IMG/VR virus record: IMGVR_UViG_3300047312_000136
Coordinates: 1-36,019 of that record
Source of the DNA: a virus
Length of the DNA stretch: 36,019 nucleotides
Reading direction: 5' to 3' (one strand)
The notes under the pieces were generated by a model. The model made no database searches, was not told where the DNA came from, and saw only the letters and a program-made list of their open reading frames with translations. Position numbers and translations under genes: made by a program. Positions 1-24,122 of this stretch are shown here, piece by piece; within the stretch, counting starts at the first letter, position 1; each line of letters starts with the position of its first letter.

Positions 1-615
1 GCGATACGGCGGGTCTTTACCTTCCGACGTGCGATCTTCGTAGGCAGGGCTGTCATCATAGCCATACACCCGATTCGTCTTTGTCAGATGGTAGACGCCA
101 AACATGGCGCTGTCCTCGCCGACATGCACCTTCATGCCTAAACCCTCGGCGTACCCGACCCAATACTCCGCGCACTTGGCGGCGCTCGTCTGCTCCATCA
201 TGCCCTCGCGCTCAAGGGCGAAGCCGTGCAGATGCACCGCCCCGAAGCCCTCGTAAAGAGCAAGAGTAATCAGCCAATCGCAGCTATTGCAGTGATATTC
301 GCCACGCGGATATTTCGCCTGCAATTGAGCGCGTGGAAATATCTCGGCGTGAGCCATGCGCTTATCCGGCCAGTCGTCGGCCAGGACGATGCGAGTTTTA
401 GGATGCTCTAACGCCCAGACCGCATCGCGCCAGCAGGGGTAGCCGTATTTCTTGAGTAGCGTGTAACGATGAACATTGAACATACGGTCGTAGCGCGGCA
501 CCCAATCCTTCACCGAAAAATTGATGCCCCAAATCTCAACGTCATCATCCTCCGCCAACTGGAAATCAAAGCAGCGCGCCTTTGCGCCGCCACCCAAGAT
601 GATGGCTTGTTTCAT
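1..615 (-). CDS. Rossmann-like phage protein, possible glycosyltransferase (partial, 3' end cut by window)
   Basis: An open frame of 205 codons runs from an ATG at 615 off the left edge. The start has a strong ribosome site (AGGAGG, a few bases upstream). The N-terminus begins IILGGGAKA, a glycine-rich Rossmann-type loop, followed by a strand pattern with EIWGIN. Near residues 109-135 lies a pattern of a serine-containing segment, an ALYEGFG helix and a VHLHGF strand. This layout recalls the DUF115/MptE-like and GT42 sialyltransferase folds, which share a GxGxS N-terminal loop and a later helix-strand-GxD/GF motif. That resemblance is weak and by eye. It is the last visible gene of the minus-strand head cluster. 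If it is a glycosyltransferase, the nonulosonate operon at 8467-16362 would give it a donor. Otherwise it is an unknown phage protein. Confidence 0.75.
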   Translation of the reverse strand, partial: MKQAIILGGGAKARCFDFQLAEDDDVEIWGINFSVKDWVPRYDRMFNVHRYTLLKKYGYPCWRDAVWALEHPKTRIVLADDWPDKRMAHAEIFPRAQLQAKYPRGEYHCNSCDWLITLALYEGFGAVHLHGFALEREGMMEQTSAAKCAEYWVGYAEGLGMKVHVGEDSAMFGVYHLTKTNRVYGYDDSPAYEDRTSEGKDPPYR

Positions 616-681
616 AAAGTCCTCCTCTATTTTTGCGAGAGCCGATCACCTTGAACGGTTTTATGAGGCTACGCATAGCCC

Positions 682-747: not shown

Positions 748-751
748 CAAA

Positions 752-1180: not shown

Positions 1181-1192
1181 TACAACCTCCTC

Positions 1193-2521
1193 TTAGGTTT
1201 GTGTTTGATACTCATACTCACTTTCACTCTCACTGTCGTCAGGGACTTTAGTTAAGTCTGTAACATAATCAACGCTGCACTCGCAATTAGGATGCACAGG
1301 CGGGTCGTCAATCGGGCCGTCGTCACTATCAAACGGTTCGTCTATCCCGACGCCATCCGGGTTGTTGTCTGGTATCGACTCGCAGATCGGGCAGGGGCTA
1401 TCGCCTAATTGCCATTGCCGCGTCAGCGCGTCTTCGGGAATTGCGCCACGATCAACCGCTTGGCTGTAGGCGTCATGCAATCCTAAATTTGCTGCACGCG
1501 TACTCTCAGTCTGAGCAATCGTAGCAGCACGATAGTCCAAATAATTTTCAATGTAATCTGACACCATGCTTTCGACAGCAGCATCCGACAGGTCGTTACC
1601 CGCGTCGATTGCGTCTTGGTAAACGGCGTCATACTCGGTGTTCCTTAGCTGCCGCTGTAGAGCTTTCGGGTCGAGGTCTTGTAGCATGCTCTGATAATTC
1701 AATACCGCCTGCGCCTGCGTATCGGTTAGGCCGATCATATCGCGCACACTGGCGGCGACCTCCTCCATATCCAAGCCTTCGCTAACGCCGTCCGATATAA
1801 TCGTGTCGATTGCATCGCGCGCGTCAGTCTCTAATTGTGCGATCAGCCGATCCTGCTCATCGCGTATCTCCTTCGCAATGTCAGGCGCGAACGCATCGAA
1901 GTTGAACTGATCGCCGGTTGCCTTCGTTATTTTGAGCAGCTTCGCAACAGTCGGCTCCCTGTCCTCGAAGAAGTCGCAAACATCATCAGCCATTATTCTG
2001 CCAGCGACCGCCGTGCAGTTACCGCCGCGACCTTCGCTGCCATCAAATGTTTCGGCGTACATCGAGCAAGTATCACATCGCGGATAGTCGGCGCGCCGCC
2101 CCAAACGTCCGGGCTTCCATTGCTGCTCCTGGGTGCGATAGTTTGCTTGCTTCTTCGTCGCCAGCCCACCCCATTCAACGCTACTTTGAAATCGTTTCTT
2201 AAACCGCACCTTGCGCCGCTTGGCGGCAAACAACCCGTTGATCTTGCGAGCGCCGAGCGCGCCACCAGCAGCGCGTAGCTTGCCGAGCCTATCGAACGGC
2301 CCGCGCAAGACCTCGCGGTAGTGATGCCAGTTGATAAGCATGGCAGGATTGATGCCGTGCTTGAGCGCATCGATTACCTTGCCGACCGGCACCATATCGC
2401 TGAGATTGTTGAAAGCGTGCTGTAGATCGCGCGCAACGCCCTTCATGGCCGAACGCGATAGCCGCAAGATTGGATCGTCGTCGCGCTGATAATGTCGAGC
2501 GGGGCGGATGCGCTTTACCAT
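1193..2521 (-). CDS. Head morphogenesis protein, SPP1 gp7 / Mu F-like
   Basis: A 442-residue minor head protein, expected to sit inside the procapsid near the portal and help DNA injection or assembly. The C-terminal third carries the family signature: a helix with IAQTESTRAANLG, then QWQLGDSPCPIC and, after an acidic insert, HPNCECSV. These are the paired cysteines typical of SPP1 gp7/MuF proteins. The longer frame reaches 2572, but I place the start at the ATG at 2521. It has GGAG upstream and lies one base after the preceding stop (TGA at 2523-2525). The first 150 residues are basic and contain no recognised domain. The last residues form an acidic SESESEYEYQTQT tail. The portal and terminase genes lie upstream on the same strand, which supports the call. 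Confidence 0.88.
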   Translation of the reverse strand: MVKRIRPARHYQRDDDPILRLSRSAMKGVARDLQHAFNNLSDMVPVGKVIDALKHGINPAMLINWHHYREVLRGPFDRLGKLRAAGGALGARKINGLFAAKRRKVRFKKRFQSSVEWGGLATKKQANYRTQEQQWKPGRLGRRADYPRCDTCSMYAETFDGSEGRGGNCTAVAGRIMADDVCDFFEDREPTVAKLLKITKATGDQFNFDAFAPDIAKEIRDEQDRLIAQLETDARDAIDTIISDGVSEGLDMEEVAASVRDMIGLTDTQAQAVLNYQSMLQDLDPKALQRQLRNTEYDAVYQDAIDAGNDLSDAAVESMVSDYIENYLDYRAATIAQTESTRAANLGLHDAYSQAVDRGAIPEDALTRQWQLGDSPCPICESIPDNNPDGVGIDEPFDSDDGPIDDPPVHPNCECSVDYVTDLTKVPDDSESESEYEYQTQT

Positions 2522-2522
2522 C

Positions 2523-2792
2523 TCATCTCCATGCGACGTTTTGAGGAAGCTCAGCCGTTCCGTACACCTCAAGACATAGCCGACTTTCGCGCTCGTAACC
2601 AGTCACCTTGATCCAATCGTAGACCTCTTTATTGCGGAATCCATGTAGCGTCTGAAGCTGCGGGAGCCTTTGTTCTGCCTGCGGCTCGACCTCGCGATAT
2701 AGCCAATCAACTATAACGTATTGGATGATGAACGGATTGAGCGGGCTACGCCATATTCGCGGAAAACCAGCAGCGCTTAGTTCTTCGCCCAT
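2523..2792 (-). CDS. Hypothetical phage protein, 89 aa
   Basis: The start ATG at 2792 overlaps the end of the 51-residue gene upstream by 16 bases. The stop at 2523 abuts the head morphogenesis start, so all three are probably translated together. The protein is rich in aromatic residues and starts with a proline-containing IWRSPLNPF segment. I see no known motif. Position between the portal side and MuF suggests a small head-completion or accessory protein, by inference only. Confidence 0.65.
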   Translation of the reverse strand: MGEELSAAGFPRIWRSPLNPFIIQYVIVDWLYREVEPQAEQRLPQLQTLHGFRNKEVYDWIKVTGYERESRLCLEVYGTAELPQNVAWR

Positions 2793-3553: not shown

Positions 3554-3562
3554 TTTCGATCC

Positions 3563-4155: not shown

Positions 4156-4156
4156 T

Positions 4157-4453: not shown

Positions 4454-4454
4454 C

Positions 4455-4895
4455 TCAGGCGACTACTTCGAGCCGCTTCTGCTCCGAAGCCTCTTTTGCG
4501 TTCTTGGGCTTGGCTGGCATTTGCAGCACAGTCGCCGTCTGACCTTCATCGAGTCCAGTCAAGAGAACGACATGACCATCCGGCATTTCGATTGCATCGT
4601 GGTGCCGCATTGGCTCGTCTAGATTGATCTGGCGGAAGATCGCGACCTTATGTTCGTTCTTCGCAAACGTAGTCATAATGCCTGCGAGCGCCTTGTAGTA
4701 CCACGGCAGTGCCGTAGTGACCTCGGCATCAAACGCAATCTCGGTGCCGGGGAGTAGGCACACGGCAACGTTGACAGGATCATCTGGCCCCGCACCCGCG
4801 AAGCCCTTTGTTCCAGTGCCGAAGTTCTTCACCACAAGCTTGTCGCCAACCTTGGCTGAGCGAAAAGCAACGTTCTGTAGACTGTAGTCACACAT
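4455..4895 (-). CDS. MCDYS-family small protein, function unknown
   Basis: I place the start at the ATG at 4895 (MCDYSLQNV), which has GGGAG upstream. A longer frame begins at 4910. It overlaps the portal stop by 8 bases. The protein has the sequence order MCDYS, AKVGDKLV, VAVCLLPGTEIAFDAEV, FRQINLDEP, HHDAIEMPDG and ATVLQMP. I recognise this from short uncharacterised proteins in Bradyrhizobium and related genomes, by memory. Conserved positions are intact, so it is not a decayed copy. Its role is unknown. Its presence points to a Nitrobacteraceae-type host and is a second host-like gene inside the head cluster. Confidence 0.8.
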   Translation of the reverse strand: MCDYSLQNVAFRSAKVGDKLVVKNFGTGTKGFAGAGPDDPVNVAVCLLPGTEIAFDAEVTTALPWYYKALAGIMTTFAKNEHKVAIFRQINLDEPMRHHDAIEMPDGHVVLLTGLDEGQTATVLQMPAKPKNAKEASEQKRLEVVA

Positions 4896-6552
4896 GATGC
4901 TTGCTCCCATTGTGCCTGTTCGCGCTAATCCCGAATCGCGGGCCTTGCTGCCTGATGATACGCTTCGCCAAGCTCGCGAGTAGCATCTTATTTAATCGGT
5001 CGGACGGGCTTCCGGGTTTCGCGGGCTGTGGCGGATTCTTGATGTTTTCCGTCTGCGCCTGATCTGCCTCATCTTGATTATCCAACTGCTCATCGAGCAA
5101 GCCAGCGGCCTGCAATGCGCGAGGATCGCTAACATCGGGCAATCCGCCAGCGTCTAGCAGGAAGGTTTGCAGATCCTCGTTCGGGAACATCGGCATACCG
5201 GCTTGCGACATGCGCAGCACATAATTCGAAAGCACATCTAGGTCTACCCGCTGCGCTAGATCAGGGACAAGCTTCGGCTTTGTTTTCGGATCGAAGCCGT
5301 TTAACTGCCACAACCGCTCGACGGCGTACTTGTTATAGACCTCGGCAAAATTATTCAGGTAGCCCTCCACTGCCTGAAAAAACATATCGACCTTAGTGAC
5401 CGCCAGCGATTGCGTGCCGCGCGCTTCGTGCCCAAGGCTTAGGAAGTCCGCAAGCACAGATGTCATCATGCCGATATTGTAGCGACCGATTGCGACCTCG
5501 AAATTCAACGCCGTGCCGCGACCGCCTTGTGGCGTCTGTAGCTCAAGTGAAAATTGCGGAAGACTGGTCGGGCCGTTTGCGCCCTGCCACGGATCGCTTG
5601 GCATCACGGCACCCATCTGTTCGTCCACTCGCATGTTACGCGCGAGAGAGCGAAACGATTCCATGCTCGCCATCGCTTTTGAATTGCCTGCGTTGGCGGC
5701 TTCAATCATCGCCATCGGCACCTTGACGACAGGAAAGCCGCCCATGCGTTCGCCCAAGATAGCCTCTAGCTCCTGCAATCGTTTGATAAAGTAATAGGGA
5801 ACGTAGGCAGTACGTAGGATCGAGCGGCCTTCTGGATTGTTCTTATGCGAAGTCGGCCGAAACAGCAGCATCTTCTCTATTGCCATGTCGCGCATGATGC
5901 CGGTCCACGGCAACTGACGCACGCCGGTGATCGTGCCGACACCATCGAAGTACCATTGCAGAATAGTATCCTGCCCGCGTAACGGAATGCGCCGCCAGCC
6001 AATCAATCCATCATCGTAATCGCTCGCGCCTTGCCGCTGGCCGTCAGCAGATTGCGGCGGCGTTTTTCCGAGCCTGCGCTTATAGACAATCTCGTGCGGA
6101 GCGTAGCCGTACTGTAGCGCCGATAGATTCTCGATAATCAAATCGGACCACGTGTGGCTCATGTCGTCCATGCACGATTGAATAAAGTCTGCCGCTTGCT
6201 GTCCCTGGCCGGTGCCGACTTCCTCGCTTGGCTCGACGCGCCACTCCACTTTGCGCATGGTACTTTGAATTGCGTAAAGCAACGCGCCAATAGTCGGGCT
6301 GTTGTCGCCCATCTCGCGGTATTTCTGCGCGCCCTGCCGACCTTGTAACTCAAAAAGCGTTTCTTCCTTCACCCAACCGGAAAAGACGCGAAGGCCGGAG
6401 ACGCCAATTTCTCGGAAGGTCAGCCCTCGCTGAATATTCCCGGTGTCGAATACCGGGGCCGCACCCGGCGTTGACATGATGTTGGTAGTGATGTCCGCGC
6501 GCTCATCGATCGGTCGAGAGAACGGATTTACTGGTTGCGTCGGATCAGCCAT
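4888..6552 (-). CDS. Phage portal protein, DUF935 / Mu gp29-like
   Basis: A 554-residue portal subunit. It would form the dodecameric ring at the capsid vertex through which TerL pumps DNA. The central region carries the family pattern: REMGDNSPTIGALLYAI with VEWRVEPSEE, a WSDLIIENLSALQYGYAPHEIVYKR-type stretch in pieces, and NPEGRSILRTAYVPYYFIKR followed by a helical LQELEAILGERMGGFPV. A later ARGTQSLAVTKVDMF segment also fits. The C-terminus is Gln/Asp/Pro-rich and probably disordered. The start at 6552 is six bases after the TerL stop. Length is in the usual range for this portal class. Confidence 0.9.
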   Translation of the reverse strand: MADPTQPVNPFSRPIDERADITTNIMSTPGAAPVFDTGNIQRGLTFREIGVSGLRVFSGWVKEETLFELQGRQGAQKYREMGDNSPTIGALLYAIQSTMRKVEWRVEPSEEVGTGQGQQAADFIQSCMDDMSHTWSDLIIENLSALQYGYAPHEIVYKRRLGKTPPQSADGQRQGASDYDDGLIGWRRIPLRGQDTILQWYFDGVGTITGVRQLPWTGIMRDMAIEKMLLFRPTSHKNNPEGRSILRTAYVPYYFIKRLQELEAILGERMGGFPVVKVPMAMIEAANAGNSKAMASMESFRSLARNMRVDEQMGAVMPSDPWQGANGPTSLPQFSLELQTPQGGRGTALNFEVAIGRYNIGMMTSVLADFLSLGHEARGTQSLAVTKVDMFFQAVEGYLNNFAEVYNKYAVERLWQLNGFDPKTKPKLVPDLAQRVDLDVLSNYVLRMSQAGMPMFPNEDLQTFLLDAGGLPDVSDPRALQAAGLLDEQLDNQDEADQAQTENIKNPPQPAKPGSPSDRLNKMLLASLAKRIIRQQGPRFGISANRHNGSKHHV

Positions 6553-6558
6553 GAGTCA

Positions 6559-7935
6559 TCACCATAAGACGCCTTTTTCTTTTTTAGCCGGTTGATTACC
6601 AGGACGCACAGGCGACAAGGCCGGGTTTTGTACCTCACCCCATTGCGGGTCGCCAAAGTATTCTCGCGGTTGGGCTACTACACCGAATCCGCCTGTGCCT
6701 ACGACAGTACGCCGAACCGACTCGACTGCATAGCGCACAGCATCAATAGTATGGTTGTCCTTGTCGAGCAGCGACGGCAGCACTTCATCAGTCAGCTTGT
6801 CTCGCTCGTAGGCGTAAAACGTAAATTCGTCCACGACACGCTTACAGTTTGGGTGGATAATGACATCGTATGATTTGATGAACTCCACGCCCTCCTCGAC
6901 AGAGCCTGATCCCTTGCGCGCTCGTTCAATCTGCGGGTAGCCGTGATTTGACATGTAGCTGATAGTTTCCGGCCGAGCGCTGTCAGCCATGATAGGCCAT
7001 TTGCGGGGGTGTAATTCATCTTCAGGTCCATTCGCTATGCTATCAAATAGCGCTGGCGTCTTGTCTATCTCGACGCCTACGCCGCTTGCCTCAGCATCGA
7101 TATAAAGCACCCTCGTTTCTGGGAACACGTAGCAGCGCACCAGGACCGTAGGATCAACGGAGAACCCCCAGTCTGCGCCGTAGTATGGACGTGTCCCGCT
7201 GGGCACGTCCAATGCCTCAATCTTCCAATTCCTAAACACTGCCGAGTCGGTGCGGTGAGCGTACTGGCCTCGCCAGACGTGCTTATACTTCTCTGGGTCA
7301 CGAACCTGATCCCTTTCCATTTCTACTTTGAGAACTTCGGGAAAGAACGGGTTATCCTCAATCTGCAATTCCTTAACGATTGCCCACTTGTCATAATACC
7401 GTTTAAGTGACGACGGCACTCCGGCGTCGGCAATATCCCCTTTCCGAAACATCGCATCAACCGGATCGCGCGGGCTACGCGGATTCCAGGCGAACCAAAT
7501 CTCCGAGCCGTTCTTACGAATGGTAGGGATTAGCGTGTTAAGACTGACTTGCGATACGGTGCTGGCTTCCTCTACCCATACGATGTCGATATTTGCCATT
7601 GATTGCATCGACACTGCACGCGCAGTCTGCAAGCCCTCAAATATAAACTGCGAGCCGTTTACTCCGGTGATGGTGTTCGCCGTAGACACGAAGAACGTAT
7701 CCAACCCTGCCCGCATAATTGCTTCGTCGAGCATGTGTTTGACCGACTCGCGGATTGTCTTCTGTACCTCGCGGCAACAGAGTATACGGGTGGGCTTTTT
7801 GGTGGCCTTTAAGATGGCGGCAATAGCAAAGCTTGTACTCTTAGCTGCACCGCGACCGGAGAACATTGCCTTATAGCGCGCTCGAACCTTAACTAGATCA
7901 CGGAACGCTTTCGGCAATTCCAGATCATGCGCCAT
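6559..7935 (-). CDS. terL: Terminase large subunit (PBSX/Terminase_3 type)
   Basis: The packaging ATPase and nuclease. Residues 27-34 are the Walker A variant GRGAAKST, and 116-124 (IDIVWVEEA) are Walker B with the catalytic Glu. The nuclease half starts at D255 in YGADWGFSVDP and continues with D318 (MADSARPE) and the DNHTIDAVRYA helix near 400. These supply the acidic metal ligands of the RNase H-like fold. At 458 residues it is full length. The start ATG overlaps the upstream stop by one base (TAATG). The adjacent portal gene confirms the packaging module. The short tail rich in Pro/Lys after residue 435 is variable in the family. Confidence 0.95.
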   Translation of the reverse strand: MAHDLELPKAFRDLVKVRARYKAMFSGRGAAKSTSFAIAAILKATKKPTRILCCREVQKTIRESVKHMLDEAIMRAGLDTFFVSTANTITGVNGSQFIFEGLQTARAVSMQSMANIDIVWVEEASTVSQVSLNTLIPTIRKNGSEIWFAWNPRSPRDPVDAMFRKGDIADAGVPSSLKRYYDKWAIVKELQIEDNPFFPEVLKVEMERDQVRDPEKYKHVWRGQYAHRTDSAVFRNWKIEALDVPSGTRPYYGADWGFSVDPTVLVRCYVFPETRVLYIDAEASGVGVEIDKTPALFDSIANGPEDELHPRKWPIMADSARPETISYMSNHGYPQIERARKGSGSVEEGVEFIKSYDVIIHPNCKRVVDEFTFYAYERDKLTDEVLPSLLDKDNHTIDAVRYAVESVRRTVVGTGGFGVVAQPREYFGDPQWGEVQNPALSPVRPGNQPAKKEKGVLW

Positions 7936-8300
7936 TAGACAAACTTGACGTTGACTTGAATCGGCGGCGCACTCTTGTCCGCATCGCTTCGCAACGTAGT
8001 GTTTTGCAGCTTGGGCGATTGATACGGCGCGAGATTATTCGCAATCGTCGTGCCCTCATGTAGCGCCGCTTTCATCTTGCTTTGATCCGGATTGGGACCA
8101 TTCGGCTGATGCTGCGCCGCAAGCCCGAACCAGAACTCCATCGCCTCGGCCATGCGCTCGACCGCTAGCCTGCGCCCGGACTGACGTTCTTCTTTCTCTA
8201 CTCGCTCGCGTGCGGCAGCCGTTGATTTATTGAGCGTGCCGCGTTGACGACCGCCAGTTTTCTTCTGACCGATGATGCCCATGTCCCGATAATAGAGCAT
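7935..8300 (-). CDS. Small DNA-binding-like protein, candidate terminase small subunit
   Basis: A 121-residue basic protein immediately upstream of, and overlapping, terL by one base. Residues 14-34 hold a GGRQRGTLNKST stretch. This is like the AT-hook-like GRPKGSLNK starts of many phage small-terminase or DUF5681-type proteins. A charged helix follows, then AMEFWFGLAAQ. Two starts are possible: ATG at 8300 or ATG at 8282 (MGIIGQKK); neither has a strong ribosome site. The function as small terminase is inferred from position, size and the basic N-terminus. Confidence 0.72.
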   Translation of the reverse strand: MLYYRDMGIIGQKKTGGRQRGTLNKSTAAARERVEKEERQSGRRLAVERMAEAMEFWFGLAAQHQPNGPNPDQSKMKAALHEGTTIANNLAPYQSPKLQNTTLRSDADKSAPPIQVNVKFV

Positions 8301-8330
8301 TAGAACAAGTCACACAAAGAGCAGCTTCGT

Positions 8331-8368
8331 AAAAAAAACAAGCGCCCTGACGGGGAGCCAGAGCGCTT
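8331..8368 (-). terminator. Rho-independent terminator ending the nonulosonate operon
   Basis: On the minus strand AAGCGC and GCGCTT pair around an inner CTG/CAG helix with one mismatch (8340-8368), followed by G and eight T residues (8331-8338). It separates the operon above it from the terminase operon, whose first gene starts only 30 bases further on. It could also act as a partial read-through point feeding the head genes. The remaining 8369-8466 holds no gene that I can support. Confidence 0.8.
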
Positions 8369-8466
8369 GGAGGTCTACAAAACAGGGTCATCCCATTGGG
8401 GGCTGCAAGGAAACAGGACGACCTAATAATGCCTATTACCGCGATTCCGCTTATATGTGCAATGGG

Positions 8467-9090
8467 CTAGTTCTTCGTCGCTATTATAAGCCAGTCCTCG
8501 ACCACCTTGCCGTTCTCTTGAACCGAGTGCTGTTCGACTTCGGCGCTAAAGCCATTGCGAGCAATTAACCCTTCGATCTGGTCCTGCTTGAGTTTCAATA
8601 CCTTACCAGCGGTTGTCAGCTTATCGTCCCGCAATGGAGATGCGCAGACGCTTAGAAACCGACCGCCGCTGCATAAGACACGCGCCGCTTGCGCCCAGGC
8701 ATAAGTCAGTTCTTCTTCGGTCAGGTTTTCCAATGAGCGAATATCGACCACGAGATGAAACGACCGGGGCGTATACGGCCACGGCTTTGTGCAATCCGCC
8801 ACGATCAGGCGCGGGAAGTTATGGATCGACTTCGCTGTGAGCCTATATAGCGCCCTAGAGATGGCCGTGGGTGAGCTATCGAAGCCGCAAGTAGAAAACC
8901 CTTGAGCGGATAGATACTCGGTATTCCTTGCCGTCCCGCAGCCGACCTCAAGACAGCTTACGGCGTGGCGCTGTTCTTCATCCCGCCCTTTTAGCCAATA
9001 TTGCGCCTCGGCGATCAGGCGAAAATCGGGAGCGCGCCCTATAAGCAAACGCGCCTTATGCGCTTCATTCCATTCAACGGCGTAGTTCAT
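8467..9090 (-). CDS. SAM-dependent methyltransferase (class I)
   Basis: A 207-residue class I methyltransferase. Motif I is LEVGCGTAR at residues 47-55. GFDSSPTAIS is the acidic end of strand 2, VADCTKPWP is motif II/III, and DIRSLENLTEEEL is motif IV. The ARVLCSGGRFLSVCAS stretch is the usual post-motif strand. It is the last gene of the nonulosonate operon and overlaps neuC by 17 bases. In such a setting it could O-methylate a sugar, or methylate another small molecule or protein; the substrate cannot be read from the sequence. The terminator at 8331-8368 follows. Confidence 0.88.
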   Translation of the reverse strand: MNYAVEWNEAHKARLLIGRAPDFRLIAEAQYWLKGRDEEQRHAVSCLEVGCGTARNTEYLSAQGFSTCGFDSSPTAISRALYRLTAKSIHNFPRLIVADCTKPWPYTPRSFHLVVDIRSLENLTEEELTYAWAQAARVLCSGGRFLSVCASPLRDDKLTTAGKVLKLKQDQIEGLIARNGFSAEVEQHSVQENGKVVEDWLIIATKN

Positions 9091-10108
9091 TTTCGACGTG
9101 TTTCACGTGTGACACTTCTCGCCTTTCGCTTAACCATCGCCATACATTCTCCTCTAGAGCCTCGACTATTCGCGGCGCGCTATTGCCATCGCCGTAGGGA
9201 TTCTCACAGGTTGATCGACCGTGATCGGCCAATTTCATTATTATTTCCGCAATGCGATCAGGCTCAAGCCCTGAGTGGTAAACGTTGTCTGGTATTGTTC
9301 GCCCCCTCTGCCTGTCTCCCACAAGCACGCATTGCAGTCCGAAACTCGGTGCCTCATAGAGCATTGCGCTTGAGTTACCGACCATGACATCGCAATGAGT
9401 CATTAGAGAATAATAGAGTTGCGGCGAAACGTTCTCGGCGAACACGCATTGATGCCTGCTACCGCTCCAATCGCGCCACACACTATTGATCGCTTCGCCT
9501 CCCGGATCAGCATTCGCGCCTAAGCACACGCACTGTATTTCAATTTTGGATAACGCAGCCACGACAGCCCGCGCTTCCATCATTGGCTCTGACTCTACGG
9601 TATTCGGATGAACGCACACGATAGCGGCCTTTTGGTCGAGCCGCCAATCCATGCGCTTAAACACGCCTTCCCTTGTCAGCACCGCCGTCTGCTTGATGCG
9701 ATCGATGGCTGGCGAGCCGGTCATGTAGACCTTGTCGCCTTTGTGACTCAGCGGTCCCTCATTATAGTCGCCGCCAGTAATGCGATTGAACGCAACAGCA
9801 TTGGTAGCGAAGTGGATACAGCTTAAAGCCGTGATCGCGTCCCTATAGCGATTGTCCGCCGAGCCTTCCGTTACGTCGCCGCCCGCTATGTGGGCGATAG
9901 GAATGCGTCGTCGCGCAAGTTCAACTACTGCCTCCAAAACCTCAAATCTATCGCCGCCGACAATGGCCGCGTCTACGTGCTTAGACGAATAGCCGAAGTC
10001 ATCTGCTTGCCATAGGTGCGAAGTATGCCACGCCTTCAATAACGCCTCATGCACGACCTCTAGGCCGTTACGATCCGCGCGAGAGCCGGTGATGACCAGG
10101 ACTTTCAT
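9074..10108 (-). CDS. neuC: NeuC/LegG-type hydrolysing UDP-sugar 2-epimerase
   Basis: This enzyme makes an N-acetylmannosamine-type sugar from a UDP-sugar with release of UDP, the entry to sialic or legionaminic acid. The family features are complete: ITGSRADRNGLE at the start, HIAGGDVTEGSADNRYRDAIT at residues 73-93, a CVHPNT strand, and VGNSSAMLYEAPSFG with LVGDRQRGR toward the end. WecB-type non-hydrolysing epimerases lack this exact AGGD-TEGS pattern. I choose the ATG at 10108 (344 aa). It overlaps the small lipoprotein stop as ATGA, although a longer frame starts at 10126. The true substrate (UDP-GlcNAc or UDP-diacetylbacillosamine) is uncertain; the neighbouring LegC-type aminotransferase favours the second. 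Confidence 0.92.
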   Translation of the reverse strand: MKVLVITGSRADRNGLEVVHEALLKAWHTSHLWQADDFGYSSKHVDAAIVGGDRFEVLEAVVELARRRIPIAHIAGGDVTEGSADNRYRDAITALSCIHFATNAVAFNRITGGDYNEGPLSHKGDKVYMTGSPAIDRIKQTAVLTREGVFKRMDWRLDQKAAIVCVHPNTVESEPMMEARAVVAALSKIEIQCVCLGANADPGGEAINSVWRDWSGSRHQCVFAENVSPQLYYSLMTHCDVMVGNSSAMLYEAPSFGLQCVLVGDRQRGRTIPDNVYHSGLEPDRIAEIIMKLADHGRSTCENPYGDGNSAPRIVEALEENVWRWLSERREVSHVKHVENELRR

Positions 10109-10266
10109 TTTCGCTCTACCATGCATCTAAATCCAAACGTGTGTACTAGCCTTGCCACGTCCGGGCGACCGTTGCAGGTGAAATCTTCCTTTCGCGACTC
10201 CTCATAGTTGCGAGCGCAGCCGCAGCAGGTCAAAAGCAGAACTGCTAGAATCATGATGACCTTCAT
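10105..10266 (-). CDS. Tiny lipoprotein-like exported protein, 53 aa
   Basis: An ATG at 10264-10266 with AGAGGGG about 8 bases upstream opens a 53-codon frame, ending in the TGA that overlaps the neuC start (ATGA). The first 17 residues are a hydrophobic signal (MKVIMILAVLLLTCCGC) rich in cysteines that could be lipid-modified, though it does not fit the lipobox exactly. The mature part is short, with two further cysteines. The size and signal resemble phage o-spanins or entry-exclusion lipoproteins, but there is no partner here. It is interesting because it sits inside a sugar operon and sets the translation of neuC. Confidence 0.68.
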   Translation of the reverse strand: MKVIMILAVLLLTCCGCARNYEESRKEDFTCNGRPDVARLVHTFGFRCMVERK

Positions 10267-10281
10267 TGCTGAGTCCCCTCT

Positions 10282-11436
10282 TTACGGTGTCGATGGCAGG
10301 CAGATGCAGCGCCGCCAGATGTCCTCCGCTGTTTGTAGACTACCTTGACGGGGGGCAAATTTGAAATGCGACAGCTTATGCAGTGGCGTGAAGATCGCTC
10401 GCGCTTCGAACCCGTCATCCAATAGCGCCTGGATCACCGCGTCCCGCTCGTTCATTACGCGAGGATCGAGCAGTATGGCATTGAGCCAGTGATTGCTTCC
10501 TGGCACGTCAATCATGCTGACGTTTTTGTTATCGTCAAAGGACACCGCATAGCGCGCCGCCAACGTCAGCTTGGCGCTCAATGTCTGAGCAAGCCTGCCA
10601 AGCTGTTCAACGCCCAACGCAGCGCCCATAGACGACATGCGATAATTCCAGCCGACCTCATCGTGCTGCCACAAGAACGGATGCTCGACTTTAGCTTGTC
10701 TCGCTAAATGACTGACGCGCTCCGATATTTGCTGATTGTTTGTCAGCACCGCTCCACCGCAGTCAGTCGTAACGATCTTATTAAGGTTGAAGCTCAATGC
10801 GCCAGCCATGCCGATTGTGCCGCAATGCTGCGTCAGAGCAAATGATCCCAAAGCCTCTGCGGCGTCCTCGATAACCACAATGCCGTAATACTCCGCAATG
10901 CTGTGTATGTCGTAAATCTCGCAGGGATTGCCGAGTAGATGAACGGCGACTATGGCCGCGACCCGCCGCCCGGTCGCAATGTTCTGCAATGTGCCGTCCT
11001 GATGTCGATGGAAGAAGCCCCTATCCCCAAGATACTGTCGCAATTTGAAACGGGCGACCCCTAGCGTTTGAACGTTGTTATCCACAAAATGCGGGACGGC
11101 CCCGGCGTATACGATGGCGTTGGCCGTGGCAGCGAAGGTCAGGGATGGGCATAGAACCTCATCCCCCTTCCCCACACCCGCCGCTATCAAAGCGAGATGC
11201 AGAGCCGCCGTACCGCTACTGACGGGTATTACAAAATCAGCCCCGGTAATCCGCTTCAGGCTCGCTTCGAACTCCCATACATAGCCCTCCCCCAGATTTA
11301 TCCTGCTCAAATGAATAGCGTGCTTGGGCCGCTGAAGCTCACGCGACCCGTCGCCTATTACCGCCCGGACGACGCCAACAATCTCATCCGCTATCATTGG
11401 ACGTTTTCTTCCGATCAGTCTCTGCCATAAAAGCAT
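10282..11436 (-). CDS. legC: LegC-type DegT/DnrJ/EryC1/StrS aminotransferase
   Basis: A PLP-dependent sugar aminotransferase, expected to convert a UDP-4-keto-6-deoxy-HexNAc to the 4-amino sugar. The SSGTAALHLAL helix (residues 73-82), the EDAAEALGS motif (D191 contacts the PLP ring nitrogen) and LSFNLNKIVTTDCGG (K220 forms the Schiff base) are all present. The segment TLGVARFKLRQYL and the later GRRVAAIVAVHLLGN match the LegC/bacillosamine subfamily better than WecE or PseC. Two starts are possible: 11436 (GAGG upstream) or 11397 (MIADEIV, GGAAGA upstream, better aligned to relatives). The frame overlaps the preceding gene by 53 or 14 bases. The catalytic set looks intact. Confidence 0.88.
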   Translation of the reverse strand: MLLWQRLIGRKRPMIADEIVGVVRAVIGDGSRELQRPKHAIHLSRINLGEGYVWEFEASLKRITGADFVIPVSSGTAALHLALIAAGVGKGDEVLCPSLTFAATANAIVYAGAVPHFVDNNVQTLGVARFKLRQYLGDRGFFHRHQDGTLQNIATGRRVAAIVAVHLLGNPCEIYDIHSIAEYYGIVVIEDAAEALGSFALTQHCGTIGMAGALSFNLNKIVTTDCGGAVLTNNQQISERVSHLARQAKVEHPFLWQHDEVGWNYRMSSMGAALGVEQLGRLAQTLSAKLTLAARYAVSFDDNKNVSMIDVPGSNHWLNAILLDPRVMNERDAVIQALLDDGFEARAIFTPLHKLSHFKFAPRQGSLQTAEDIWRRCICLPSTP

Positions 11437-11656
11437 TTAGTGTCGCCTCGACCCGCGATCTAATGATGTCCATATCTATAGCCTGCCGCTGTCGGTGCAG
11501 ATTTATCATCGAGACTACGGCCTGAAGATTATTGCGAACCTGATGTTGCAACTCCGCGAGCAGAATTTCTTTTTCGTTTGCGCATTCCGCTAACAATTTT
11601 CTCAATCGTTTAACCTCGCCCCTTAGATGATTTTGTTGATGCCCGTTCGTTTCCAT
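11384..11656 (-). CDS. Stand-alone histidine-kinase phosphoacceptor (DHp, HisKA_2/HWE-like) domain
   Basis: A 90-residue protein consisting mainly of a charged helix (EVKRLRKLLAECANEKEILL) running into the box LAELQHQVRNNLQAVVSMI. This is the HisKA_2/HWE phosphoacceptor signature; the usual form is LxExxHRVKNNLQ, and H38 is the phosphorylatable residue. It ends soon after, with no ATP-binding (N, G1, G2 box) domain and no sensor. The ATG at 11656 has GAGAGG four bases upstream, so it is a real gene rather than debris. It overlaps neuA by 47 bases and legC by up to 53. It could be a phosphotransfer or dimerising decoy acting on host two-component signalling. Confidence 0.75.
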   Translation of the reverse strand: METNGHQQNHLRGEVKRLRKLLAECANEKEILLAELQHQVRNNLQAVVSMINLHRQRQAIDMDIIRSRVEATLNAFMAETDRKKTSNDSG

Positions 11657-12296
11657 AAAGCCTCTCCCAAGCTACTTGTGCCATTTCCAAGTCCATGCCG
11701 TTGTCGATGTCGATGCTCCGCTCCTTCGGCATGACGTAGGAGTAAGCATAAGGGCCGTACCAATGACCGCCGCCACGCAACACCGATGTCTTGATAACGT
11801 AGACGGCACCATTGGGGCGCACGATGTCGGGTATGTGTTCGAGTCGTCCCGCGTGCCGACGATGGAATGCAATGTCGTCCTCACCTTCGGTAACACTCAC
11901 CACGGAGTCCACACCGGCAGTAAGCATGTCGATGCACTGCGCTACGTCTATCGCTGTGCGTAACGGCGATGTCGGTTGCAGCAGACAAATTGCATCAGCA
12001 TCACAGCCGAGCTTTATTAACTCATCGTCCGCGTGTTTCATCACCTGCACCATCACATCGTAGGTTTGTTCGAACTGCGGTTGTTTGATTAAAATAATTG
12101 GTTCAACAGACATCATCGCCGCCCCGACAAATATGCGTTCGTCGTCACTACTTATAGCGATTGGATTGCATAGACCACTATTACGCGCGTGATTTACCGC
12201 ATGAATCCACAACGAAACGCCGCCAACCTCACTCCAATTCTTTTCCGGCAGGCGCTTGCTGTTCTTTCGTGCCGGTATCAGTCCGACGACTTTCAT
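11610..12296 (-). CDS. neuA: CMP-nonulosonate (sialic/legionaminic) cytidylyltransferase
   Basis: This activates the nonulosonic acid with CTP, giving the CMP-sugar donor. The N-terminal nucleotide loop IPARKNSKRLPEKN (residues 7-20), LLQPTSPLR (105-113), RPNGAVYV (160-167) and SIDIDNGMDLEMA (194-206, the metal-binding Asp pair) match NeuA/LegF/PseF. At 228 residues it is a single-domain form without the C-terminal esterase of some NeuA proteins. I choose the ATG at 12296, which overlaps the upstream stop as ATGA; a longer frame starts at 12308. The nucleotide is probably CTP, because the operon has NeuB. Substrate choice between Neu5Ac and legionaminic acid is not readable. Confidence 0.92.
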   Translation of the reverse strand: MKVVGLIPARKNSKRLPEKNWSEVGGVSLWIHAVNHARNSGLCNPIAISSDDERIFVGAAMMSVEPIILIKQPQFEQTYDVMVQVMKHADDELIKLGCDADAICLLQPTSPLRTAIDVAQCIDMLTAGVDSVVSVTEGEDDIAFHRRHAGRLEHIPDIVRPNGAVYVIKTSVLRGGGHWYGPYAYSYVMPKERSIDIDNGMDLEMAQVAWERLYGNERASTKSSKGRG

Positions 12297-13330
12297 GCGG
12301 ATCGCCATACAGCAACAGCAACCTTCACTATATCGCTAGGCGTCATGCTTTCATGAATTGGCAACAGCAAATGTTTGTCCCAAAAGTCCCTTGCTGGCGA
12401 ACCGCTAGGAGGACTTATCCAGCGGTCAGACACAATCTCCGCAGCCACACCTAATTTAGCCATCTGATCTGCTGCGCGCAGACGGTGCCCGCATCGAACA
12501 GGCAACGCAAAAATCGGAACGTCATTCCTGAACAAATAGCGCGACCGCAGCCGTTTAATTATCTTGCTGGCATTTTCCCGCCGTATCTTAACGATGCCGT
12601 GAAAATCAAGGTCGTTACGAAACGCTCGCGCAAGCGCGGACATGGCACGCGGCTGCATATCAGATGAAATGGATCTGTAGTAATCCTCATAGTGGTTTAG
12701 GCTTTGAGCGTGCGCCTCCGGATACAGCGACGAAGAAGTCAGAGCAATAAAGCGATTTGCCACCATGTGCTGAAAATAAGCGTTTACGGCAACATCGTCG
12801 CTCGGCCGCAAATCCTTCGGCATGCTCACGTCCGCATTAGGCGAGCGAGAGAACAGCATCGCCCCATCAGACACCGGCAATATCTTATTCATCGAATACA
12901 GCGCGATGTCGGCGCAGTCGTTCTTCGGGTCGGGATTGACCAAGCAGTGCGCGCAATCTTCGAGCAGCAAGCCGCCCGCTTCGTGCGCCATGATCGCCGC
13001 GTCACACGTTGGCATCGCATAGCCGAAGTAATGCACCACCACGACAAGCGGCCGTTTTGTCGATGGACGCCCGGCAAATCCATGAACGCGACCAATCGCA
13101 CGCCCTAGACTGCCAAGGTGAGGCGACAGGTCCGCTCTCAGATCGTAGAAGTCAACGCGAATGCCTGCTTTCTCAAACGGCATTATCAGTCCTTCCGGCA
13201 CCATGTGCGGCATCACCACGCGGTCGGGACCGTAACGCTCGATAAGATGCACCAAGCAACTGCGCCCGGTAGCAAACGTACAGGTTGTCAGCGGCAAGAG
13301 CATCGTATCGTAGCGCAAGACGGTCAGCAT
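12293..13330 (-). CDS. Second PLP fold-type I aminotransferase-like protein (divergent DegT)
   Basis: A 345-residue protein with the PLP fold-type I landmarks of sugar aminotransferases: VVHYFGYAMP, LLLEDCAHCL with D125 in place to contact PLP, and YSMNKILPVSDGAML with K149 as candidate Schiff-base lysine. The N-terminal glycine-serine phosphate loop is shortened (FATGRSCLVHLI), and the C-terminal half is unlike LegC. I recall similar SLRKxLPVPDG proteins in surface-polysaccharide clusters. It follows neuB with a one-base TGATG overlap and precedes neuA with ATGA. It could act on a different keto-sugar, for example to put a second amino group on the nonulosonate precursor, but the reaction is not known. 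Confidence 0.75.
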   Translation of the reverse strand: MLTVLRYDTMLLPLTTCTFATGRSCLVHLIERYGPDRVVMPHMVPEGLIMPFEKAGIRVDFYDLRADLSPHLGSLGRAIGRVHGFAGRPSTKRPLVVVVHYFGYAMPTCDAAIMAHEAGGLLLEDCAHCLVNPDPKNDCADIALYSMNKILPVSDGAMLFSRSPNADVSMPKDLRPSDDVAVNAYFQHMVANRFIALTSSSLYPEAHAQSLNHYEDYYRSISSDMQPRAMSALARAFRNDLDFHGIVKIRRENASKIIKRLRSRYLFRNDVPIFALPVRCGHRLRAADQMAKLGVAAEIVSDRWISPPSGSPARDFWDKHLLLPIHESMTPSDIVKVAVAVWRSA

Positions 13331-14151
13331 CAGGATGCAGTGAGGTGTTTATATTGATGTTTGACGAAGCGGTCATACTCGGCGCGGTTCTCGACCTCGC
13401 ACGGCATCAACGTTTTGATGCCAGAGCCAAGCGATTTAGAGGCGGCGCGCAGCGTGTCTACATAGGACGCCATCAGGCTAGGCGTGCATGACGCGGCATG
13501 ATCCCGACCGGCTTGATGAGTGTCGAGCGTTATATGCTTCTCGAAGATGCGTGCTCCCAATCCAATCGCAATCAACGCCGCTTGACTAGTGCGTGTGTGA
13601 TCTGAAAACCCGACCGTTATCTGACCAAACCGCCTGAAAATTTGGCGAATAACCAGCAGATTGAGTTGATCGTGCGGCGCAGGGTAAGCCGACACGCAAT
13701 GCAATATCGTAGTCTTGGCCGGTTGCAGCGCATGGATAGCCGCCGCCATCTCGCCCCACTCGCACGCGCCGGTCGAGAGAAGCACCGGCTTGCCGCGCTT
13801 GGCAAGCTGATAGAGTAACGGCTTGTTTGTAATATTTGATGAACCGATCTTGATACGCTCGACGCCCATTTCAATCAACGCATTGAGGTCTTGCCAGTCA
13901 TCCGGCGTGCAGAGAAACCGTAGCTGCATGCCCTCCGCCAATCCCTTTAGTCGAGACAAGTCATCGGCGGACAATTCCAGCTTCTTCATTTCCTCCCACC
14001 GCTCGCGCGGATAGACACGCTCGCTATTCCATAGCTGAAACTTGACCGTATCGCAGCCAGCGTCCTTCGCCGCCTTCATCAGCATCAACGCGGTGCCGAT
14101 GTCGCCGTTATGATTGACGCCAATCTCGGCTATGATTTCGATGTCGTTCAA
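13330..14151 (-). CDS. neuB: NeuB-type nonulosonic acid synthase lacking the SAF domain
   Basis: This condenses PEP with a mannosamine-type sugar to give the nine-carbon acid. The TIM-barrel motifs are complete: IAEIGVNHNGD (7-17), DTVKFQLW (34-41), STGACEW, ILHCVSAYPAP (149-159), VGFSDHT (180-186) and FEKHITLD with GRDHAAS (203-221). At 273 residues it stops at the MPCEVENR linker, just where the C-terminal SAF/antifreeze-like domain of normal NeuB, LegI or PseI (about 340-350 residues) would start. That domain normally covers the active site of the partner subunit. The start is TTG at 14149-14151 with AAAGGA seven bases upstream, and it overlaps the preceding TGA. No SAF-like frame is visible downstream. 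Confidence 0.92.
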   Translation of the reverse strand: MNDIEIIAEIGVNHNGDIGTALMLMKAAKDAGCDTVKFQLWNSERVYPRERWEEMKKLELSADDLSRLKGLAEGMQLRFLCTPDDWQDLNALIEMGVERIKIGSSNITNKPLLYQLAKRGKPVLLSTGACEWGEMAAAIHALQPAKTTILHCVSAYPAPHDQLNLLVIRQIFRRFGQITVGFSDHTRTSQAALIAIGLGARIFEKHITLDTHQAGRDHAASCTPSLMASYVDTLRAASKSLGSGIKTLMPCEVENRAEYDRFVKHQYKHLTAS

Positions 14152-14348
14152 TATGGGTTCCTTTCGCCGCTCAGCAAACCCTCAATGCAATCATCCATGC
14201 GCTCCTGCTCGGCCTCTATAGCTTTTGTTAATTCCTCGCCCTTCATCCCATCAAAAGCGTTCCGCATCGGAAAGTATACGCGCTTGAGCAAGGCACGAAG
14301 TCCATTCTCGATGCGCTCCAAGGCGTCAACGGTTGCGTGCACAGTCAT
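14148..14348 (-). CDS. Small helical protein, 66 aa
   Basis: The ATG at 14348 has AGGAGG five bases upstream and overlaps the preceding stop (TGATG). A GTG three bases earlier is an alternative. The product is almost entirely charged helix (VDALERIENGLRALLKR, then EELTKAIEAEQERMDD). It may dimerise as a coiled coil. No family is recognised. Its stop overlaps the TTG start of neuB, so it is probably needed to set neuB translation. Confidence 0.72.
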   Translation of the reverse strand: MTVHATVDALERIENGLRALLKRVYFPMRNAFDGMKGEELTKAIEAEQERMDDCIEGLLSGERNPY

Positions 14349-14740
14349 CACTTCCTCCTGTCCGGTGCCGTATCATTCTCGCCAATGCCAATCGCCCCCG
14401 GCAACTGCGGCTCCGGCGTAATCACCCCACGTTCCAGATTAGCCCCGGCAAGCAGCGGTCCAGCCGTTTTAGATGCGCGCTCGATGTCGTCCACAACGGC
14501 AAGAATCTGATCGCTGGTACACGTCCACGGTTCGCCATCCTTCCACCACCCGGTCGTGCGATGCATGAAGCGCATGTAGAAAGTCGTCGCAAGGTACTGA
14601 TCCATTGTTTCAGTCAGCAGCGCCTTGCACAGCTTAATTGACTTCGGCGGCTTGCCCCATTCAAACGTGCCAAGCTCCCTCACGCCTGGATTGACGGCGA
14701 ATACGCGCCCATCGTTGCCACCGACAAAACGTATTTTCAA
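14348..14740 (-). CDS. Hypothetical protein, 130 aa
   Basis: The start is TTG at 14738-14740, preceded by a perfect AGGAGG seven bases away and overlapping the upstream stop as TTGA. The first 30 residues look beta-stranded (KIRFVGGNDGRVFAVNPGVRELGTFEWG). The middle is helical with TGWWKDGEPW, and the last 30 residues are proline/glycine-rich and probably disordered. No family is recognised. Position within the sugar operon does not define a function; it may be a virion gene carried in this transcript. Confidence 0.72.
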   Translation of the reverse strand: MKIRFVGGNDGRVFAVNPGVRELGTFEWGKPPKSIKLCKALLTETMDQYLATTFYMRFMHRTTGWWKDGEPWTCTSDQILAVVDDIERASKTAGPLLAGANLERGVITPEPQLPGAIGIGENDTAPDRRK

Positions 14741-15780
14741 ACGAACGGCCTCCTATAAGCGGGAAAGAACTCAGCGGTAGACTCTCGACCGTGCTGCTCT
14801 TGTTCTTCCATCGCCTTGCGATTGCATAGCGACTCATAAGCCGTGGCGTCGAAGATGCGCCCGTATCGCCTTGCTACCAAGAGAACGTCAGAGAATCCAG
14901 ACTTGAAGAACAACAGCGAATTTGTCTGCGCACCCTCGACGTGCGGGCCGTCACCACCAAGATGAAAACGCTTGAAGCCCATATCGCGCAATTCGCACGC
15001 CACTTTGAAATACATAAAATCATCTAACCCGTCGCCTCGGCTCTCATCGTCACTACCAAGAAAATGAGCATAGGCCGTTTCACCTAAACCTATTGTTAGC
15101 AACGCACGATGCCAGCCGCCATCTGTCCAGACTTCCCAGAAGCGAGCACCAACCCCTTCTTTCTGATAGGCGTCCCAATATTCAAGCGAGTGCTTCCAGT
15201 AGGCGCTCGCCTCTAACCGCTCCATCGCTTTGTCATAAAGCACTTCAAGCGACTTCGGCGTGCCCGCATGCAGGGTCGCTCGCGCTTCCTTCGCCGCCTT
15301 AATTCCGCGCCGCACGCGACGGCGCAAATGTTCGATGTCGAAATTAGTCAGATCGACAACAACAACTTCCTTGGCTTCTAGATAGGTATTAACAGCGTGA
15401 TTTAATAACTTGCCCTGCAAATCATCAAACAACGGATGCATGCAACAGAACTCCGACACGATATATTCACGTCGCGCCCAGGCCCATAGATTGTCTTGAA
15501 ACGGTGCCGCCAATTCAGGGCTGGCCCCTATCGGCCCGCCGTACCCGTAGAGACTTGTTAGCTCGAAATGATCTGCGCCGACCGGCATCATGAACATCGG
15601 CTGCATCACGAAGTCCGACCCTCGCGTGAACACTACGAGGATCGCATGACCCGGCCAGCGCGATTCATGGATGCGCGCATAGGCGGACGTGAAATGCACG
15701 TCCTGAAGCTCTATCGGAAGTCTATCGAAAAAACCGTCCCATTCGGCGCGATCATCCGTAGCAGAGAGAATTATGAGCAT
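14737..15780 (-). CDS. FemAB-like GNAT-fold acyltransferase
   Basis: A 347-residue protein of the FemAB/BioF2-like double-GNAT type. The hallmarks are SLYGYGGPIG near residue 80, a strand-helix stretch with VDLTNFDIEHLRRRVRRGIKAA-type basic helix around 140-165, a YWDAYQKEG segment, then FHLGGDGPHVEGAQTNSLLFFKSGFS. The last of these is the second-domain acyl-donor loop region of this superfamily. In surface-glycan clusters such proteins N-acylate amino sugars. Here it could replace the missing LegH acetyltransferase or modify the finished nonulosonate. It begins three bases after the preceding stop. Confidence 0.8.
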   Translation of the reverse strand: MLIILSATDDRAEWDGFFDRLPIELQDVHFTSAYARIHESRWPGHAILVVFTRGSDFVMQPMFMMPVGADHFELTSLYGYGGPIGASPELAAPFQDNLWAWARREYIVSEFCCMHPLFDDLQGKLLNHAVNTYLEAKEVVVVDLTNFDIEHLRRRVRRGIKAAKEARATLHAGTPKSLEVLYDKAMERLEASAYWKHSLEYWDAYQKEGVGARFWEVWTDGGWHRALLTIGLGETAYAHFLGSDDESRGDGLDDFMYFKVACELRDMGFKRFHLGGDGPHVEGAQTNSLLFFKSGFSDVLLVARRYGRIFDATAYESLCNRKAMEEQEQHGRESTAEFFPAYRRPFV

Positions 15781-15783
15781 GAC

Positions 15784-16362
15784 TTAGTGCCGCGTAGATG
15801 GCGGTTTGAGCAGCAACGCTTCACCTGAGGTCGAGTTCACCTTTACTCGTGCGGCGGCCAAGTGCTGACGTTCTTCGTCCGTGAGCCGAGACATTATGTT
15901 GCCGGTTAGCGTTTGCGCCAGCCCTAACCCGGACAGATTCATCATGACGTAGGACGCTTCGGACGGCTTTCCTAAATCGAACGATACAACAACCTTGCCG
16001 CCTACCGGCATAACGCTTGCATTATCAGCAAGCTTGAATGCCTGAGTATCTAATTCAGGCGCGCAGCCAACCCCCCACTCCATCGGGAAATGAAACAGCG
16101 AGCCGGATTTGTGGCCTATCTTCTCAGCGGCCTGCACAACCTCATAAACAAGACCGAGCAACCACTTCGCTTTTTCTACAGGGAAGGTGATCGCGAACTT
16201 ACGCGGCGGCGCGTCCTCTGTCCCGCCGCCAACCATGAACACCATCATGGCCGTAGTACCATCCGTCGATAAGCCCTGCGAAACAGATTCAAGCAAATGA
16301 ACGTGGCTGCCGCCTTCGCCTGAAGCCAACTTCTCCATTACATCATCAGTGGTATCATTCAT
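15784..16362 (-). CDS. Hypothetical protein, 192 aa, first gene of the nonulosonate operon
   Basis: The ATG at 16362 has GGAGG upstream. The first 50 residues are acidic and contain GEGGSHVHLLESV. The middle holds KFAITFPVEKAKWLLGLVYEVVQAAEKIGHKSG and a strand VVVSFDLG. The last part is MSRLTDEERQHLAAARV, a helical end. I do not recognise it. As the promoter-proximal gene it might be regulatory or structural. It is separated by three bases from the acyltransferase gene. Confidence 0.7.
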   Translation of the reverse strand: MNDTTDDVMEKLASGEGGSHVHLLESVSQGLSTDGTTAMMVFMVGGGTEDAPPRKFAITFPVEKAKWLLGLVYEVVQAAEKIGHKSGSLFHFPMEWGVGCAPELDTQAFKLADNASVMPVGGKVVVSFDLGKPSEASYVMMNLSGLGLAQTLTGNIMSRLTDEERQHLAAARVKVNSTSGEALLLKPPSTRH

Positions 16363-19221: not shown

Positions 19222-19230
19222 TCGCAGCTT

Positions 19231-19271
19231 GGGTGCCTCGTTCGCGGGGCACCCTATCGGCAATCCTGCCG
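19231..19271 (+). repeat. Double-hairpin leader, copy 2
   Basis: GGGTGCC pairs with GGCACCC (19231-19254), followed by CGGC-N6-GCCG (19258-19271). The flanks match copy 1 at 17389-17432: GAT-C/T-GCAG before, a TTCGC loop, CGGCAATC, then GCCGA and GGGG before the next start at 19289. The first stems differ in sequence yet still pair, a sign that the structure is kept. Confidence 0.65.
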
Positions 19272-19288
19272 AACTAGGGGACTACAAA

Positions 19289-20350: not shown

Positions 20351-20375
20351 CTTAACTCAAACAATGGAGACATCG

Positions 20376-24073: not shown

Positions 24074-24122
24074 AGCTGCACCATTATAACCGCGAGGAGA
24101 ATCAAGACCGGCCAGGGTTCTC

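Follow-up and report, generated by a model that had tools for sequence, protein, structure and literature searches.

Gene content and organization of the locus

The window analyzed in this work is an entire IMG/VR viral record (IMGVR_UViG_3300047312_000136, 36,019 bases). The subject of this report is an operon on its minus strand, read from 16362 to 8467, which contains genes for a putative nonulosonic acid (NulO) pathway. In order, the operon encodes u192, a FemAB/GNAT-like protein, u130, u67, NeuB, DegT2, NeuA, a 90-amino-acid (aa) HisKA_2-like protein, LegC, NeuC and a methyltransferase. Every frame is open, and most neighbors overlap, by 1–53 bases. A sequence-only reading of this DNA had placed NeuB, NeuA, NeuC and a LegC-type aminotransferase in one overlapping operon; the coordinates and genes were correct, and the family models agree. 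These synthesis and activation genes occur in one phage with an enzyme predicted to be sialyltransferase-shaped and encoded among capsid genes, a combination that points to phages, at least some of them, covering their virions with sialic-acid-like sugars. The features that carry this proposal are:

13330..14151, minus strand: NeuB/LegI, nonulosonic acid synthase, barrel only (PF03102, E 5.8e-61)
11610..12308, minus strand: NeuA/LegF, cytidine monophosphate (CMP)-nonulosonate synthetase (PF02348, E 2.6e-10; PseF model, E 6.2e-21)
10282..11436, minus strand: LegC, sugar 4-aminotransferase (TIGR04181, E 1.1e-104 over 51-382; 7b0m alignment)
9074..10126, minus strand: NeuC/LegG, hydrolysing 2-epimerase with a compact N-terminal domain (TIGR03568, E 8.9e-68)
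14737..15780, minus strand: FemAB/GNAT-like N-acyltransferase, proposed LegH substitute (PF13480, E 1.3e-4)
12293..13330, minus strand: DegT2, divergent DegT-type pyridoxal phosphate enzyme with D and K kept (hhalign against a LegC profile, probability 95.8)
8467..9090, minus strand: S-adenosylmethionine-dependent methyltransferase, possible sugar modifier (Methyltransf_25, E 7e-13)
1..615, minus strand: GT1a, sialyltransferase-fold protein by AlphaFold2 (AF2) and Foldseek (truncated at the end of the window; the complete 209-aa protein is encoded at L007:8415-9044 and also in L249)

Assignment of the core enzymes

LegC matched TIGR04181 with 350 bits over nearly its full length, under the curated cut-off of 420, and retains the catalytic D191 and K220; its true start may be internal to the open reading frame (ORF). 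NeuC was assigned to LegG with 228.8 bits against TIGR03568 (cut-off 235.9). Its best solved relative is 5xvs, a hydrolysing diacetylbacillosamine 2-epimerase, and alignment with this structure indicates that the core motifs GDRFE, D and HP are retained. NeuA scored over the PF02348 cut-off, and its motifs QPTSPLR, RPNGAVY and SIDID are intact by comparison with 1eyr. In the 273-aa NeuB, 13 of the 15 active-site residues checked are identical to those of N. meningitidis NeuB, including the metal ligands H215 and H236, while E134 is replaced by N and N184 by S.

The catalytic motifs of all four enzymes had been described as intact from the sequence alone. This description stands for LegC and NeuA, for the core motifs of NeuC and for most of the NeuB residues, and has to be amended in that NeuB and NeuC are compact variants. 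NeuC is about 45 N-terminal (substrate-domain) residues short, between the first strand and GDRFE. Random mutation or damage was ruled out, since the NeuC of the phage contig L096, 41% identical, has the same compact form; a scan for compact NeuC found close relatives in the window phage and L096 only.

Sequence comparison supports a legionaminic-type route, as the sequence-only reading had proposed, because the LegC, LegG and NulO-synthase families are present and the nearest bacterial operons hold LegB. These neighborhoods, L166 and L167, comprise LegB, NeuC, DegT2, NeuB, FemAB and a methyltransferase.

Loss of the SAF domain from NeuB

Characterized NeuB enzymes have a SAF domain that contributes to the active site. 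In the window NeuB, the barrel is present and the C-terminal SAF domain is gone entirely. A six-frame profile search detected no SAF domain in any frame of the window, so that its supply from elsewhere on the contig was rejected. Using a SAF profile built in this analysis and two NeuB scans covering the best 80 loci each, SAF was detected in 82 of 84 bacterial NeuBs, with a frameshift behind one of the two exceptions, whereas 74 of 103 viral NeuBs were SAF-negative (48 vs 24 after dereplication). In a quick tree, in which long branches are present, the window NeuB was sister (support 95) to the SAF-bearing NeuB of L166, a Methylocystaceae metagenome-assembled genome, and stood outside the main viral SAF-less clade. 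Because of this grouping, the tree indicates that SAF was lost more than once and that the loss in the window NeuB is separate from that of the main viral clade.

Two side observations concern the same family. Most viral NeuB loci (L086-L165 and others) are without SAF and the tree requires several separate changes, suggesting repeated loss in phages. Furthermore, a second NeuB of the Methylocystaceae genome (L166:2332-3171) has no SAF and groups within the SAF-less clade of viruses, which may reflect phage-host transfer.

The missing SAF domain, the short NeuC N-domain and the E134N and N184S substitutions could also mean that the truncated NeuB and NeuC are decayed or repurposed, and that the operon no longer yields nonulosonic acid. 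We consider this very unlikely, given that all frames are open and overlapping, that compact NeuC recurs in L096, and that most viral NeuBs are SAF-less, those aligned retaining most active-site residues. The PDB also contains a 290-residue NeuB chain (6ncs).

Accessory enzymes and the missing LegB and LegH

The absence of LegB and LegH noted earlier was borne out by hidden Markov model searches over six frames, in which the best LegB match had an E of 0.17 and LegH gave no match. Without LegB, the host would have to supply the 4-keto-sugar. For LegH, the sequence-only reading had offered the FemAB-like enzyme as a replacement, and this idea gains comparative support from the 80 bacterial NulO loci, which were collected by NeuB similarity and whose statistics ignore phylogeny. 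Among 60 bacterial LegC loci, LegH alone was found in 44, FemAB alone in 7, both in 1 and neither in 8 (Fisher p = 1.2e-4). When loci with LegB, LegC, NeuB and NeuC were considered, the corresponding numbers were 23, 6, 0 and 3 (p = 9e-5). Because clusters with either FemAB or LegH almost always lack the other, the comparison supports FemAB as the enzyme of the LegH step.

FemAB homologs adjoin NeuB in L096, L166, L187, L198, L206, L218 and others, and those of DegT2 were found in clusters L166, L167 and L218; a scan of viral contigs gave no DegT2 relatives. DegT2 was considered as a second LegC and rejected, being a distinct family met with FemAB clusters only. It occurs in 8 of the 10 FemAB loci and in 0 of the 70 loci without FemAB (Fisher p = 1.6e-9). 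Methyltransferase homologs were likewise found in FemAB clusters (6/10, vs 3/70 without FemAB; Fisher p = 5e-5). As a separate observation, the bacterial legionaminic/flagellar clusters L168, L187, L198, L206 and L218 lack LegH and carry a DegT2-like gene with FemAB, which is likely an unrecognized LegH substitute there. The L168 island (Tepidibacter) encompasses flagellin, Maf, NeuC, NeuB, a methyltransferase, DegT2, FemAB, NeuA, a PtmE-like protein, LegB and LegC.

Legionaminic acid derivatives bearing N-methyl-glutamate are known on clostridial flagella (PMC2674064; PMC13317340), and this suggests a possible role for FemAB and the methyltransferase in attaching an aminoacyl group to the sugar. 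The product could be a relative of the proposed sugar that is distinct from it, for example pseudaminic acid, legionaminic acid in an aminoacylated or N-methylated form, or some other 3-deoxy-ulosonate. The clostridial derivatives, the joint occurrence of FemAB, DegT2 and the methyltransferase, and the best-scoring model of NeuA, PseF, fit such a product; the aminotransferase and epimerase are members of the LegC and NeuC families instead of PseC and PseG, and the extra enzymes would only modify the core route. We regard a different sugar as possible but somewhat doubtful.

Proteins with a predicted sialyltransferase fold among the head genes

With a 56-row alignment, the AF2 model of GT1a reached a mean local confidence (pLDDT) of 83.6 and a predicted template-modeling score (pTM) of 0.80; the single-sequence model reached a pLDDT of 34.8 only. 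The best PDB matches of the model in Foldseek were sialyltransferases, led by CstII (1ro8; E 3.7e-6, probability 1.00, TM 0.50) and followed by a Pasteurella enzyme, with human ST6GALNAC2 with CMP and ST8SiaIII at lower ranks. The model thus has the CstII-like Rossmann fold of GT42. At the sequence level, none of the 56 GT1 family members matched a sialyltransferase family in Pfam. In the family alignment, which was examined for a counterpart of the catalytic His base of GT42, H49 (84%) and E141 (86%) are conserved.

GT1a is flanked by head morphogenesis and protease genes; GT1b, a second copy in the same phage, is located shortly behind the major capsid gene. GT1 relatives in other phages are arranged as NeuB-GT1-NeuC-NeuA (L254, L298), NeuB-NeuA-GT1 (L290) and NeuA-GT1 (L278, L282), and their surroundings are terminase, portal, capsid or tail genes. 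NeuA was present in 13 of 72 GT1 loci and in 2 of 77 TerL loci (p = 0.002), with locus lengths unmatched between the sets. GT1 was absent from all 80 bacterial NulO loci.

DNA-modifying glycosyltransferases are known from phages (cited in PMC12619734), and the GT1 proteins could similarly modify something else, the link to the operon being incidental. The low share of GT1 loci with NeuA within the stretch read is compatible with such a role, but the predicted CMP-sialyltransferase fold and the tight or overlapping NeuA-GT1 and NeuB-GT1-NeuC arrangements in five phages make it quite unlikely.

In the phage contig L096, FemAB-NeuB-NeuA-LegC-NeuC follow one another in the same order as in the window; the capsid and tail genes lie on either side, and the NeuB again has no SAF. 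This operon sits behind a gene whose product has a Maf domain (MptE-like, PF01973) and which occupies the position corresponding to GT1. Separately, a different sugar cluster (dehydratase-like, DegT, NeuB-like fragment, GNAT and NeuA genes) was observed upstream of the terminase in another phage, L058:1522-5138, whose TerL is 46% identical and in which GT1 stands behind a capsid-like gene. Of 50,697 phage records, only 3 contain NeuB, but in IMG/VR one pattern matched at least 394 stretches of contigs.

Phage origin and neighboring genes

The remaining assigned features of the operon and its surroundings are:

8339..8369, minus strand: intrinsic terminator closing the operon (13-pair stem, 8 G-C pairs, T8 tail)
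7935..8300, minus strand: probable terminase small subunit (by position before TerL alone; no PHROG match)
6559..7935, minus strand: terminase large subunit, TerL (phrog_3717, E 3.2e-52; 54% identity to phage MW202613)
4888..6552, minus strand: portal protein (phrog_113, E 1.7e-63)
1193..2572, minus strand: head morphogenesis protein (phrog_3517, E 7.4e-41)
15784..16362, minus strand: u192, function-unassigned first operon gene (ORF, 3-bp gap to FemAB; no match in Pfam, NCBIfam or PHROG)
14348..14740, minus strand: u130 (ORF, 4-bp overlap with FemAB; no family match in Pfam, NCBIfam or PHROG)
14148..14351, minus strand: u67, small protein (ORF, 4-bp overlap with each neighbor; Pfam match sub-threshold only)
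11384..11656, minus strand: 90-aa protein resembling the HisKA_2 phospho-acceptor helix (PF07568, E 3.2e-4, just under the cut-off)

Three further IMG/VR contigs match the terminase region at 99.9-100%. L006 spans window positions 5234-10910 and L007 spans 1-9029, so that each of the two bridges the operon and the terminase genes. L008 spans 2789-7783; the region upstream of 10910 is present in the window contig alone. In L249/L323, the 1-615 gene recurs at 100% and is followed by protease, scaffold, capsid, tail and tape-measure genes (named by eye). Terminase, portal, capsid and tail genes thus lie on one molecule, as in a tailed phage. Because independent contigs cross the junction and phage genes continue past the window, host chromosome, which had been named beforehand as the finding that would overturn the phage assignment, was excluded together with a chimera.

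The strong terminator (8369-8339) stands between the operon and the terminase genes; an Rfam search gave no match, and a promoter scan gave a result little above chance. Within the operon, the 90-aa protein (helix ELQHQVRNNLQAVVSMI) has no ATPase domain and overlaps both NeuA and LegC, between which it lies. The largest gap of the operon, 155 non-coding bp at 10127-10281, separates LegC from NeuC, and a 153-aa gene occupies the equivalent place in L096. Elsewhere in the window, a MoxR-like ATPase (phrog_1297) is encoded beside a DUF2201/VWA putative metallopeptidase pair (19229-21734, plus strand), and a PAPS-reductase/DUF3440 protein and a 241-aa cupin protein are flanked by two ParB-N genes (23555-26763, minus strand). 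The gene that separates GT1a from the scaffold gene (L249:972-2684) encodes 570 aa with, by eye, an apparent histidine-phosphatase-like RHG stretch and an XkdF-like protease end.

Proposed pathway and target of the sugar

In the proposed pathway, the host would provide a nucleoside diphosphate-4-keto-6-deoxy-N-acetylhexosamine (NDP-4-keto-6-deoxy-HexNAc), the LegB product. LegC would aminate C4, and the FemAB-like enzyme would take over the LegH step by N-acylating the C4 amine. Removal of the nucleotide and inversion of C2 would fall to the compact LegG (NeuC), the SAF-less NeuB would condense the sugar with phosphoenolpyruvate, and NeuA would activate the product with cytidine triphosphate. 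The methyltransferase, and perhaps DegT2, may modify the sugar further, and GT1a and GT1b, encoded among head genes, would transfer it. We assign a probability of about 0.58 to the whole reading, in which the operon makes a CMP-legionaminic-type acid during infection and the GT1 proteins transfer it, most likely to virion proteins. The analysis establishes the phage location, the family assignments, the lack of LegB, LegH and SAF, the near exclusion between FemAB and LegH in bacteria, and the predicted GT1 fold with its linkage to such operons; enzyme activity, exact sugar, transfer reaction and target are what we infer. CMP-nonulosonate synthesis by the operon appears highly probable, transfer by GT1 is probable from the predicted fold and gene order, and for the virion as target the odds are roughly even.

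The sugar could instead be made as proposed and decorate the host surface (lipopolysaccharide, capsule or flagellin), where it might, for instance, prevent superinfection or change a receptor. Seroconversion by temperate phages is well established, the nearest bacterial relatives serve flagellin islands, and the operon has its own terminator, so its expression may be separate from that of the late genes. Against this, no transferase candidate is encoded outside the head module, NeuA-GT1 or NeuB-GT1 pairs of other phages stand between terminase, portal and capsid genes, and no flippase, polymerase, membrane transferase or integrase was noticed among the window ORFs. A host-surface target therefore seems unlikely to us, and the predicted sialyltransferase fold of a protein in the virion module favors the virion as the target.

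Several points weigh against the proposed pathway as a whole. NeuB is without its SAF domain and carries E134N, NeuC is short in its substrate domain, and LegB was not found. The GT1a fold match is moderate (TM 0.50), GT1 finds no Pfam family at the sequence level, and GT1a is the more divergent of the two copies. Because of its own terminator, the operon need not be co-expressed with the late genes, and no cultivated phage with the full gene set was found.

More broadly, many uncultivated tailed phages may carry a self-sufficient virion sialylation module, in which compact, SAF-less synthases and compact LegG feed a new family of CstII-fold transferases encoded among head genes, so that the particles acquire a sialic-acid-like coat; the repeated loss of SAF would then point to selection for small monodomain synthases. 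We put this forward tentatively, at a little under even odds. If virion decoration is true, phages would go beyond borrowing host sugars: they would synthesize a sialic-acid-like sugar themselves and place it on their virions. Adsorption, particle stability and the way in which bacteria or animal immunity recognize the particle could all be affected. The sequence-only reading did not mention the terminator, DegT2, the methyltransferase, the domain changes in NeuB and NeuC or the GT1 transferase candidate. Testable questions now include synthase function without SAF, capsid glycosylation by a phage CstII-like family, and whether FemAB-like proteins fill the vacant LegH role in many flagellar islands of bacteria.

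Comparison with known systems

The open-access literature searched yielded no account of a nonulosonate operon in a phage, with or without a transferase; the search did not extend to preprints or subscription papers. In 2013, neuB was listed among the reads of 8 of 9 cell-free viromes (PMC3877843), which likewise places neuB in viruses, but as reads only, without operon, domain or transferase analysis.

The window operon resembles the Campylobacter/Legionella legionaminic pathway (LegB-C-H-G-I-F) in combining LegC, a LegG-type NeuC, a synthase and a CMP-synthetase. It differs in being phage-borne and without LegB and LegH, with a FemAB-like enzyme instead, a SAF-less synthase and a compact LegG. 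Clostridial/Tepidibacter-type flagellar islands (flagellin-Maf-Leg genes) share FemAB, DegT2, methyltransferase, NeuB, NeuC, NeuA and LegC, found together in L168; these islands are bacterial and include LegB, PtmE, Maf and a flagellin acceptor, whereas the phage has the predicted CstII-fold GT1 in place of Maf. GT1a resembles the GT42 sialyltransferases (CstII) in predicted fold, but GT1 has no sequence-level family match and is a phage family beside head genes. Finally, virion glycosylation in mycobacteriophages (Freeman et al. 2023, as cited in PMC12619734) offers a precedent for phage-encoded sugars on capsid and tail. Glycosyltransferases are reported in that case, whereas the window phage also appears to encode an almost complete sugar synthesis route.

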